Assembly (NCBI RefSeq): GCF_023015765.1
Contig: NZ_JALKAL010000002.1
Location: 62,001-126,000, forward strand
Source of the DNA: Ornithinimicrobium sp. F0845
GTDB lineage: Bacteria; Actinomycetota; Actinomycetes; Actinomycetales; Dermatophilaceae
Reading direction: 5' to 3'
Length of the DNA: 64,000 nt
How positions within the stretch are numbered: position 1 is the first letter of the stretch; each line of letters begins with the position of its first letter. Position numbers and translations under genes: made by a program. The notes under the pieces are model-generated. The model ran no database searches, had not been told where the DNA came from, and worked only from the letters and a program-made list of their open reading frames with translations. This document shows, in pieces, positions 17,632-20,158 of this stretch.

Positions 17632-18817
17632 GACCTTCCGCATCCAGACCCTCAACGCGATCTCGCCGCTGGGGCTGCAGCGCCTGGACCGCGAGCGGTT
17701 CGACATCGGCACCGAGTTCACCGACCCGCGCGCGATCCTGCTGCGCTCGGCCGACCTGCACTCCTACGAGGTTCCTCCGAGCCTCTACGCGGTGGCGCGC
17801 GCGGGCGCTGGCACGAACAACATCCCGGTCGACGCGCTGGCGGCCCGGGGCATCCCGGTCTTCAACACCCCCGGCGCCAACGCCAACGCCGTCAAGGAGC
17901 TGGTGATCGCCGGGCTCCTGCTGGCCGCCCGCAACCTCTATCACGCGGCCGACTACACCAAGGACCTCGTGGCTGAGCACCAGCTCTCCGGCAAGGAGCT
18001 GGACAAGCAGGTTGAGGCGGGCAAGAAGCAGTTTGCCGGCTTCGAGCTGCCCGGTCGCACCCTGGGTGTGATCGGGCTCGGCGCCATCGGCGTCCTGGTC
18101 GCCAACGCCGCGCAGGCCATGGGCATGAGGGTCCTGGGCTACGACCCGGCTATCACGATCGAGCGGGCCTGGCAGCTCTCGCCCTCGGTCGAGCAGGTCA
18201 CCAGCGTCGAGGAGCTGTTCGCCCGGTCCGACTTCATCACCCTCCACGTGCCGCTGATCGACGGCACCCGCGGCCTGGTCAACGCGGCGCGCATCGCCTC
18301 CATGCCGCAGGGTTCGGTCGTCCTGAACTTCGCGCGCGGCGGTGTCGTGGACGAGGACGCCGTGATCGCGGCGCTGGACTCGGGCCACCTGCACGCCTAC
18401 GTCAACGACTTCCCGACTGAGGCGGGTGCGGTGCACCCGAAGGTGATCACCCTGCCCCACCTGGGCGCCTCCACCTCCGAGGCCGAGGACAACTGCGCCG
18501 TCATGGCGGTCGACCAGCTCTCCGACTTCCTGCTCCACGGCAACATCCGCAACTCGGTCAACTTCCCCGAGGTCGTGATGGCACGCTCCCCCGGCACCAC
18601 CCGGCTCGGCATCTTCAACGAGAACAAGCCGAACATGATCGGACAGATCACCGGCGTCCTCGGCGACGCCGGCCTCAACGTCACCGAGTTCACCAACAAG
18701 GCCCGCGGCGACTACGCCTACACCCTGGTGGACGTCGAGGGCGACGTGGCTCCAGAGCTCAAGGAGCAGATCCTGGCGATCGACGGCATTGTCCGAGCTC
18801 GCAGGATCGAAGGCTGA
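17624..18817 (+). CDS. serA: D-3-phosphoglycerate dehydrogenase, short form with ACT domain
   Basis: First step of serine synthesis. The 397-residue protein has the 2-hydroxyacid dehydrogenase fold. RAGAGTNNIPVDAL is in the substrate domain, NAD-binding LGVIGLGAIGVLVA follows, and catalytic residues lie in NFARGGVVDE (Arg) and LPHLGAST (His). An ACT domain occupies the last 75 residues or so (NMIGQITGVLGDAGLNVTEFTN), the usual serine sensor. It lacks the extra intervening domain of the long actinobacterial SerA (over 520 aa). The ATG at 17624 overlaps the serC stop by 8 bp, so translation is coupled. Confidence 0.92.
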   Translation: MAETFRIQTLNAISPLGLQRLDRERFDIGTEFTDPRAILLRSADLHSYEVPPSLYAVARAGAGTNNIPVDALAARGIPVFNTPGANANAVKELVIAGLLLAARNLYHAADYTKDLVAEHQLSGKELDKQVEAGKKQFAGFELPGRTLGVIGLGAIGVLVANAAQAMGMRVLGYDPAITIERAWQLSPSVEQVTSVEELFARSDFITLHVPLIDGTRGLVNAARIASMPQGSVVLNFARGGVVDEDAVIAALDSGHLHAYVNDFPTEAGAVHPKVITLPHLGASTSEAEDNCAVMAVDQLSDFLLHGNIRNSVNFPEVVMARSPGTTRLGIFNENKPNMIGQITGVLGDAGLNVTEFTNKARGDYAYTLVDVEGDVAPELKEQILAIDGIVRARRIEG

Positions 18818-18894
18818 CAACCGGGCCCCGTCATGGCCCGGAGCGCCAATGGACGAGGACATTGAGCTCACCCCGTGGGTGACTGTCGGCGCGA

Positions 18895-18998
18895 TAGCCT
18901 TGCCCCCATGACATTCCCCAGCGGCGAGGGTTGAGTCCCGCCTGAGCACAGCAGCATCCCGAGGCGCCACCGTGCCTTCGAGCGTCGGGTGCTGTTGT
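18895..18998 (+). promoter_or_regulatory. Attenuator-like leader of the MFS gene
   Basis: -10 TAGCCT (18895-18900) lies 7 nt before an ATG that opens an 8-codon ORF. After its stop, ACAGCAGCATCCCGA (18948-18962) pairs with TCGGGTGCTGTTGT (18985-18998): 14 pairs, one of them G-T, with one bulged T. The 3' arm contains the GTG start of the MFS gene (18989-18991) and the arm closes just after the weak GAG (18980-18982). Such a fold would hide the start codon until opened. A second small fold (GGC/GCC plus GGG/CCC, 18923-18942) covers the end of the short ORF and may compete. Confidence 0.6.
18908..18934 (+). CDS. Leader peptide MTFPSGEG upstream of MFS exporter
   Basis: ATG-ACA-TTC-CCC-AGC-GGC-GAG-GGT-TGA, eight codons. 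The ATG is 7 nt after the -10 TAGCCT, the leaderless arrangement seen at several real genes in this window, which argues that it is translated. It ends 13 nt before the hairpin that covers the downstream start codon. By analogy with ermC, cat-86 and cmlA leaders, a ribosome stalled on it could expose the transporter start. Peptide existence is not proven by sequence alone. Confidence 0.5.
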   Translation: MTFPSGEG

Positions 18999-20158
18999 AT
19001 CGCGCGTCGCGCGAGGCGATCCCGCTCTTCGCGCTCTACGCGCTGCTGTTCGCCGACCACGGCCTGACCACCTCCCAGATCGGCACGCTCCTGGCGGCCT
19101 GGTCGGTCAGCGCCTTCCTCCTGGAGGTTCCCTCCGGGGCGTGGGCGGACCTCATCGACCGGCGGCTGCTGCTGATCGCCTCCGGGCTGGTGTATGTCGT
19201 GGCGTTCGCCACGTGGTTGCTGTGGCCGTCGTACTGGGGATTTCTCGCCGGCTTTGTCCTGTGGTCACTCTCCGAGGCACTGCGGTCCGGGACCTACGAG
19301 GCCTACCTGTTCGACGAGCTGACGGCTGCCGGGCGGGCGGACCGGTACGGCCCGGTGAAGGCCCGTGCCGAGAGCCTCACGGTGATCGTGATGGCTGCAG
19401 CCATCGGGGTGGCCGGACCGCTGCACTCCCTGGGCGGCTACCCCCTGGTGGGCTGGGTGTCCGTCGGCGTCGCGCTGCTGCACACCCTCCTGGCGGTCGC
19501 CCTGCCGCGGGTCACACCGGTCGCCGACATCGAGGAGACGCCGGACCCCGAACCGGCCTCGATCGGTGCCTGGGCCACCACTGTCCGGGCCGGCGTGCGT
19601 GAGGCGGCCCGCAGCGGGGCCATCCGCAAGGTGCTGATGGCTTACGGCACCGTCGTCGCGCTCGTCGGGCTCGACGAGTTCTTCTCGCTGATCCTGGTCG
19701 AGGGTGGGACGTCCGTGGGCCTGATCGCCTGGATCCTGGCCGGCGTCACGCTGCTCGAGGCCGCGGCGACCTGGGCCGGCGCCGCTGTGGCACGGCTGGC
19801 CGGCATCCCCCACGCAGCGATCGTGGCCGGCGGGGGGCTGCTCCTGGCGGTCGGCGCATGGCTCACCGGGCCATGGTCCTACCTCGCGATCGCCGTGGGC
19901 TACGCCCTGGCCACGGCGTCCTACGTCAGCGGCGACATCCGGCTGCAGCACACCATCGCCGGCACCGCACGAGCCACCATCACCTCGGTCGCCGGGGTGG
20001 TCGCCGAGGTCGGCTTCCTGGTCACCCTCGGCCTCATCAGCCTGGCCACACTGCGCTTCGACCTGGCTCCGGTGGCGGCCGCCGTCGCGCTCATCCTCAC
20101 CGTCCCTGCCACGGTGGCGGCCCACCGGGCACCTGCCGCCCGCAGCGTCCCTCGATGA
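18989..20158 (+). CDS. Major facilitator superfamily transporter
   Basis: A 389-residue integral membrane protein with about 12 hydrophobic spans. The MFS loop 2-3 motif appears as EVPSGAWADLIDRRLLL near residue 55, and the arrangement LLYRASREAIPLFALYALLFAD at the N-terminus is typical of actinobacterial drug or metabolite exporters. GTG at 18989 is the first start after an in-frame stop at 18932. The ribosome-binding site is weak (GAG at 18980-18982), in keeping with translational control by the upstream hairpin. Substrate unknown; an antibiotic exporter would fit the leader structure. Separated by 171 bp from serA, with its own promoter. Confidence 0.85.
   Translation: MLLYRASREAIPLFALYALLFADHGLTTSQIGTLLAAWSVSAFLLEVPSGAWADLIDRRLLLIASGLVYVVAFATWLLWPSYWGFLAGFVLWSLSEALRSGTYEAYLFDELTAAGRADRYGPVKARAESLTVIVMAAAIGVAGPLHSLGGYPLVGWVSVGVALLHTLLAVALPRVTPVADIEETPDPEPASIGAWATTVRAGVREAARSGAIRKVLMAYGTVVALVGLDEFFSLILVEGGTSVGLIAWILAGVTLLEAAATWAGAAVARLAGIPHAAIVAGGGLLLAVGAWLTGPWSYLAIAVGYALATASYVSGDIRLQHTIAGTARATITSVAGVVAEVGFLVTLGLISLATLRFDLAPVAAAVALILTVPATVAAHRAPAARSVPR

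Follow-up and report, generated by a model that had tools for sequence, protein, structure and literature searches.

Why a gene for a putative exporter should be preceded, in its own reading frame, by a tiny ORF and a stop codon is the question raised by the locus described here. It lies in a stretch of 64,000 nucleotides (the window; C12:62001-126000 of a 4.2-Mb genome), downstream of an ORF that ends at 18817 and that we take to be serA. The first-pass annotation had described a probably leaderless and translated 8-codon ORF (MTFPSGEG) behind the hexamer TAGCCT, followed by a hairpin that hides the GTG start of an MFS gene with a poor ribosome-binding site, and it had proposed that a drug-stalled ribosome on the short ORF opens this hairpin. 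The ORF and promoter were found where placed (18895-18934, with the 7-nt spacing), as were both arms of the hairpin (18948-18962 and 18985-18998), with GTG 18989 in the 3' arm and no evident Shine-Dalgarno (SD) sequence before it. Reading onward from ATG 18908, leader and transporter form a single frame broken by one stop: MTFPSGEG, the stop, and then VPPEHSSIPRRHRAFERRVLLYRASREAIPLFALYALL. The features are collected in Table 1.

Table 1. Features of the leader-transporter locus, with positions numbered along the window
Feature	Positions	Strand	Remarks
-10 promoter hexamer TAGCCT	18895..18900	+	Ends 7 nt 5' of the leader ATG 18908
Leader mini-ORF MTFPSGEG with its stop	18908..18934	+	Probably leaderless; same frame as the MFS gene
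In-frame TGA dividing the mini-ORF from the MFS reading frame	18932..18934	+	Preceded by T (GGT TGA)
18 codons from the stop to GTG 18989	18935..18988	+	MFS frame open; without ATG, GTG, or TTG; probably N-terminal coding sequence
MFS transporter reading frame from the first GTG onward, 389 aa	18989..20158	+	Pfam MFS_1
Predicted hairpin of the first-pass annotation	18948..18998	+	Similar form in the closest relative, L004; absent from L005 and L006

The protein of the MFS frame belongs to Pfam MFS_1 (38.2 bits against a gathering score of 33.4), and an NCBIfam search of it returned no family above its cut-off. By this gene, the named relatives are Ornithinimicrobium murale and an Actinomycetales MAG. 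The gene itself ends in TGA, which argues that this codon is not generally reassigned. Rfam gave nothing up to an E value of 1 in positions 18300-19300 of the window. In an Rfam search of six loci, none of the leaders was matched, and the sole match above the gathering threshold was a TPP riboswitch (RF00059) at L065:3511-3611, 3' of the MFS gene.

Among 31 genomes of the window's genus, 17 matched the MFS protein, 15 of them strongly (the window counted). All 15 strong loci have a short ORF closed by TGA ahead of the MFS frame, and in 14 of them (13 of the 14 besides the window) the leader ends in (F/Y/H)P(S/A/T)GE(G/S/A); the exception, L005, has the leader MMFPSGSS and thus ends in FPSGSS, and in L007 and L008 the nearest start is a more distant GTG. 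Six codons separate the stop from residue 1 of the transporter in eleven loci and 15 to 18 codons in the other four, always in frame. Searched as DNA with one mismatch allowed, the leader pattern matched 15 of the 31 genomes, 14 at the MFS gene and one (G014) elsewhere, with one additional match in the window's genome, where the mismatch abolishes the stop. The recurrence of the peptide in the genus, its gene specificity, and the placement of TAnnnT before the leaders lift the mini-ORF above chance. MTFPSGEG is thus a real and probably leaderless ORF, a short, conserved, gene-specific leader ahead of the transporter; by its sequence it also seems translatable, as the first-pass annotation had supposed.

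Whereas the short ORF and its peptide recur in the genus, the hairpin stem was seen again in L004 only. The folding z score was -1.47 for positions 18900-19020; the hairpin segment alone gave -3.0 in the window, -2.2 at a similar place in L004, and -0.6 and -1.5 in L005 and L006, where the pairings differ. The 6-codon spacer of the eleven genus loci is too short to hold the hairpin of the window. In addition, the codon at the position of GTG 18989 is GTG in 2 of the 15 loci and GTC or GCG elsewhere, which suggests that GTG 18989 is probably an internal codon and not a start. The genus therefore has the short, seemingly translatable upstream ORF of a leader-peptide attenuator, and no conserved hairpin over a ribosome-binding site or start was found in it. 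A hairpin centered on the TGA was also considered, since four loci (L010 to L012 and L014) pair well there (z of about -2 to -2.5), and was dropped because the mean z was -0.78 over the 15 genus loci, with no conserved structure around the stop. It is the in-frame stop, not the hairpin, that is conserved at this locus.

The comparison comprised 109 loci: the 15 of the genus, 5 from other genera of the taxonomic family, 13 order-wide, 22 phylum-wide, 27 more Streptomyces-like ones, and 27 more of family f22. The order-wide and phylum-wide searches covered 396 sampled genomes each; the gene was present in 48 of 150 genomes of the Streptomyces-like sample (loci read from 32 of these 48) and in 43 of 151 of the f22 sample (loci read from 31 of these 43). 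Outside the 109 stand profile matches weaker than an E value of 1e-40, the weak matches L018, L019, L022, and L028 to L037, second pieces of genes already counted (L020 and L021), duplicates (L001 to L003, L046, and L047), and loci L170 to L172 of a plasmid collection. A fixed rule, which demanded an in-frame stop no more than 40 codons away and, ahead of this stop, a mini-ORF no longer than 17 codons, assigns the in-frame layout to 74 of the 109 loci (70 with TGA and 4 with TAA); their stop lies 2 to 16 codons after the start. L008, whose GTG is 27 codons off, and L073, with two TGAs, share this layout and bring it to 76 (72 TGA and 4 TAA). The remaining loci have a separate leader (26) or no recognizable leader (7).

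Leader peptides are kept inside clades and differ between them (FPSGEG-like, RYPAAQP, RRRC/RRRR, WRH/RRH, LVIYNC-like, MPG, ML, QFRFG, and others). On a protein tree of 108 rows (L106 was too short), the labels in-frame (76), separate (26), and no leader (6) changed 9 times against a shuffled mean of 29.4, which indicates that each leader form is long-lived; loci with the in-frame layout are distributed across this tree. L061 and L127 have an in-frame leader and then a later in-frame ATG, and are possibly intermediates between the two architectures. The two TGAs of L073 lie one codon apart (MQFPFG-stop-H-stop-LPPEARRLSRL); its sisters L065, L075, and L076 have one. Nearly identical RYPAAQP/RFPAAQP leaders occur in L114 and in L048 to L052, from two families, closed by TGA in L114 and L051 and by TAA in L048 to L050 and L052; the proteins of L114 and of L048 to L052 are not sisters on the tree, implying leader transfer or convergence. 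Inspection by eye of the longest ORFs on either side of ten loci revealed no evident common neighbor.

Promoter placement and frame both tie the leader to the transporter. TAnnnT lies 5 to 8 nt upstream of the leader start in 43 of the 74 rule-defined loci, compared with 0.5% at other upstream offsets. A mechanical search (ATG or GTG, TAnnnT 6 to 7 nt upstream, and an ORF of 2 to 20 codons) returned one mini-ORF in each of 71 of the 109 loci. Wherever the stop of this mini-ORF falls within 111 nt of residue 9, it shares the MFS frame (44 of 44 loci, in 14 genera), so that the same frame runs on either side of the stop. The 27 more distant mini-ORFs lie in frame 0 (5 loci), 1 (1 locus), or 2 (21 loci), and all 27 transporters behind them own an ATG; one of these mini-ORFs, in L063, is probably a chance ORF. 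Since readthrough needs a shared frame and reinitiation does not, the 44 of 44 counts for readthrough.

The codons before the stop are also unusual. The base preceding it is T in 64 of 74 loci, whereas only 1325 of 22200 MFS codons end in T, and it is this base that is conserved and not the residue, since T stays although the residue in last place may be Gly, Cys, His, Arg, Pro, Thr, Ser, Leu, or Asn. The penultimate leader codon, if it encodes Arg, is CGA in 21 of 21 cases, although CGA accounts for 84 of the 1201 Arg codons within the MFS bodies. With wobble-read codons occupying the P and E sites, termination may be weakened. Following the stop, the next base is C in 33 of the 74 loci, U in 23, G in 15, and A in 3; in E. 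coli and yeast, +4U reportedly lowers readthrough (PMC5289835).

In 39 of the 76 in-frame loci (37 by the rule, plus L008 and L073) there is no ATG, GTG, or TTG between the stop and residue 9. The first such codon in these 39 comes at residue 11 to 60 (median, 21). Eleven of them belong to the window's genus, with the first start-like codon at residue 33 in ten, which by our reading falls after the first membrane helix, and at residue 11 in L008. Unless they use an unusual start, these genes would have to be translated by ribosomes that enter upstream of the stop. Of the 39 loci, 5 also lack CTG, ATT, ATC, and ATA, and 2 have one of these preceded by an SD-like tetramer from a fixed list of five. 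In mycobacteria, leaderless initiation is established and needs a 5'-end ATG or GTG, and leadered initiation needs an SD site (PMC4633059). The other 37 of the 76 loci do have some ATG, GTG, or TTG before residue 9, and no start-like codon was found at a conserved position in the 15 genus loci.

The sequence beyond the stop bears the mark of selection on codons before any start. Up to the first ATG, GTG, or TTG, substitutions at the three codon positions number 191:116:460 in 33 of the 39 loci (within-clade pairs, which are not independent), and of the codon differences 339 are synonymous and 271 are not; L005, L023, L027, L066, L071, and L104 have no partner and were omitted. The comparison stretches 5' of the leader gave 559:558:575. 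All 18 of the MFS proteins aligned share residues R5, E9, and F14. The signal is weak in the spacer directly after the stop (387:318:420 across the compared clades as a whole, and 190:139:123 in the genus clade with the short spacer), where G+C by codon position is.69/.69/.80 across the gene family. Coding constraint is thus seen on both sides of the stop, as clade-kept peptides and nucleotide constraint before it and, the spacer apart, as the substitution pattern after it.

The Streptomyces-like genus offers a second architecture. Among 33 loci read there, 25 have a separate leader, 7 an in-frame one, and 1 (L106) neither. Of 121 genomes, 23 contain the exact MTWRH-type pattern, each a single time, and in all 23 it adjoins the MFS gene. 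According to the list of matches, the transporter is present in 31 of those 121 genomes, and 5 of the other 8 were read and have variant leaders. In the 23 of the 25 loci that were aligned, the leader peptide is MTWRH or a close variant. A predicted stem follows it, and the ribosome-binding site (C/T)GGGAAGGC that serves a normal ATG start forms the 3' arm of this stem. The z scores of five loci folded singly were -3.06, -2.74, -4.29, -2.01, and -0.97; the consensus stem has 18 pairs, mostly invariant, with a compensatory change at 1 of the 18. In the commonest form, the 5' arm starts 12 nt after the leader stop, and a ribosome held at that stop should therefore keep the stem open. The mechanism of the ermC, cat-86, and cmlA type that had been suggested for the locus in the window is not supported there but fits these 23 relatives. 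In our reading, the leader stop is the decision point common to both architectures.

Taken together, a tiny ORF, a stop, and a pump in the same frame, about half of the loci being without a usual start, suggest that the pump is made only if ribosomes pass the stop. Readthrough as the source of the exporter is strongly indicated. Counted against it are the weak signal of the spacer, the lack of a conserved structure at the stop in the 15 genus loci, the two TGAs of L073, the 37 of 76 loci with a start-like codon, the +4U in 23 of 74 loci, and seven loci without a recognizable leader; besides, the window copy, taken alone, could start at GTG 18989. Two explanations compete with readthrough and are still live, namely, reinitiation at unusual codons and a leaky, unregulated stop. 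Under the former, the mini-ORF is a separate peptide, and synthesis of the MFS protein, coupled to leader termination, begins farther on, in this locus at GTG 18989 and in others at different or nonstandard codons. The presence of GTG 18989, the start-like codons of the 37 loci (ATG in L061 and L127), and the 25 of 33 Streptomyces-like loci with a separate leader and a transporter ATG of its own are all in accord with this. It does not, however, require the shared frame found for all 44 close leaders, the position of the start-like codon is not conserved, and of the 39 strict loci 5 lack even CTG, ATT, ATC, and ATA, while 2 have one behind an SD-like tetramer; we consider it unlikely. A leaky stop that constitutively holds a potentially harmful transporter low would produce an identical layout and would tolerate leader peptides that vary between clades. 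Against such a damper, the last codons are kept against codon bias, each clade retains its peptides, and relatives carry the same leader ahead of a predicted attenuator hairpin, which looks like regulation, so we rate this explanation as quite improbable.

For the drug-stalled ribosome that opens the hairpin at 18948-18998 and exposes GTG 18989, the z scores of the window and L004 and the predicted attenuator of this type in Streptomyces-like relatives can be cited; the different pairing in L005 and L006, the limited room in eleven genus loci, the rarity of the GTG (2 of 15), and the lack of an evident SD sequence before it make this switch very improbable here. Selenocysteine was favored at first, because tRNA-Sec and selA occur in the genus. 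The window's genome has a tRNA-Sec gene at G000:C23:144284-144375 (minus strand) and selA at G000:C12:298962-300203 and thus probably makes selenoproteins elsewhere, and in the taxonomic family selA was above the cut-off in 19 of 20 strong carriers (the exception being a genome 73% complete), compared with 100 of 166 other genomes. If the TGA encoded selenocysteine inside an N-terminal extension, however, carriers should have the machinery and use UGA only, and neither holds. Among 60 carriers tested (3 in the taxonomic family; 59 read as in-frame), selA was above the cut-off in only 13; in two more genomes (G795 and G819), truncated or split matches fell short of it. Besides, four loci use TAA, one has two TGAs, and the genus loci show no conserved structure around the TGA. 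The selA counts and the TAA clade rule out selenocysteine as a general explanation, and we give it practically no weight.

We therefore return to readthrough, for which the following course of events can be drawn. The transporter gene would start at the leaderless ATG 18908, with its frame running through TGA 18932. By default, ribosomes would produce the 8-residue peptide and terminate; the exporter would be produced when a near-cognate tRNA decodes the stop and the ribosome continues. The leakiness of the stop would be set by the final leader codons, namely, the wobble-read NNU before the stop and, in some clades, the CGA before that. A compound that disturbs decoding or termination would raise readthrough and so turn on its own exporter, whereas relatives whose transporter starts separately would sense the same event by means of a ribosome that stays on the leader stop and thereby keeps the hairpin over the ribosome-binding site open. 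We hypothesize that the leader is tuned such that readthrough rises with disturbed decoding or termination, and the existence of two architectures makes this sensing hypothesis attractive; a link of translation stress to the leader-MFS locus, as the first-pass annotation had supposed, is plausible. On balance, it is fairly probable that the exporter gene begins at the leader ATG and is expressed by stop readthrough, likely as a sensor of disturbed decoding or termination. The stricter version, in which the stop is an antibiotic sensor and the exporter is produced if, and only if, a compound or stress causes stops to be misread, is possible, and we put it forward tentatively.

Several known systems resemble parts of this arrangement. 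The leaders of ermC, cat-86, and cmlA are drug-inducible leader-peptide attenuators, and with them we group the tet(L) leader (PMC9387203) and E. coli toiL (PMC12121999). As in these, a short ORF at the 5' end precedes a resistance or stress gene, and the Streptomyces-like relatives add a predicted hairpin over the ribosome-binding site; in contrast, 76 loci continue the transporter in the frame of the leader past the stop, 39 of them lacking any usual start ahead of residue 9, and the hairpin of the window is not conserved. The prfB gene for release factor 2 uses a programmed +1 frameshift, in which slow termination at an early in-frame UGA promotes expression. Our loci likewise have an early in-frame UGA to overcome and a codon ending in U before it, but they encode a transporter, use TAA in one clade, and keep the frame after the stop; a +1 downstream frame was found in none of the 44 close leaders, all of which are in frame 0. 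Selenoprotein genes also carry an in-frame UGA inside the reading frame, and differ from our loci by the points given above (47 of 60 carriers without selA above the cut-off, TAA variants, and no conserved TGA structure in the genus). Programmed readthrough in viruses, animals, and fungi mostly adds a C-terminal extension to a functional protein. A conserved stop with conserved coding sequence beyond it is common to both, whereas here the stop comes so early (in the 74 loci of the fixed rule, 2 to 16 codons past the start) that readthrough would be needed for almost all of the protein. The TnaC leader, whose stop codon is likewise a regulatory point, has tryptophan as its signal and acts on transcription termination in an operon; no common stall motif was seen in our leaders.

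Leader-controlled exporters and bacterial recoding are thus known kinds of regulation. In the open-licence PMC text, neither this leader nor a transporter gated by readthrough was found described, and the same holds for an obligatory stop that lies in the frame of the gene, precedes almost an entire transporter, and is retained from genus to genus. If our reading is true, stop-codon readthrough has long been used as a built-in transporter switch across Actinomycetota, a phylum whose members make many ribosome-targeting antibiotics. Misreading of the code itself would be the signal, and the damage that a compound does to translation would switch on the removal of that compound, with neither a regulator protein nor an RNA switch. 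Leader fusions could then report compounds that disturb termination or decoding. Such genes are also difficult to annotate, as the mini-ORF appears separate and the start assigned to the pump may be wrong. On a Rhodococcus ruber plasmid (L170), the record starts the MFS gene (1492-2670) at a GTG behind an in-frame MRHRC-stop leader, and this gene model is probably too short.
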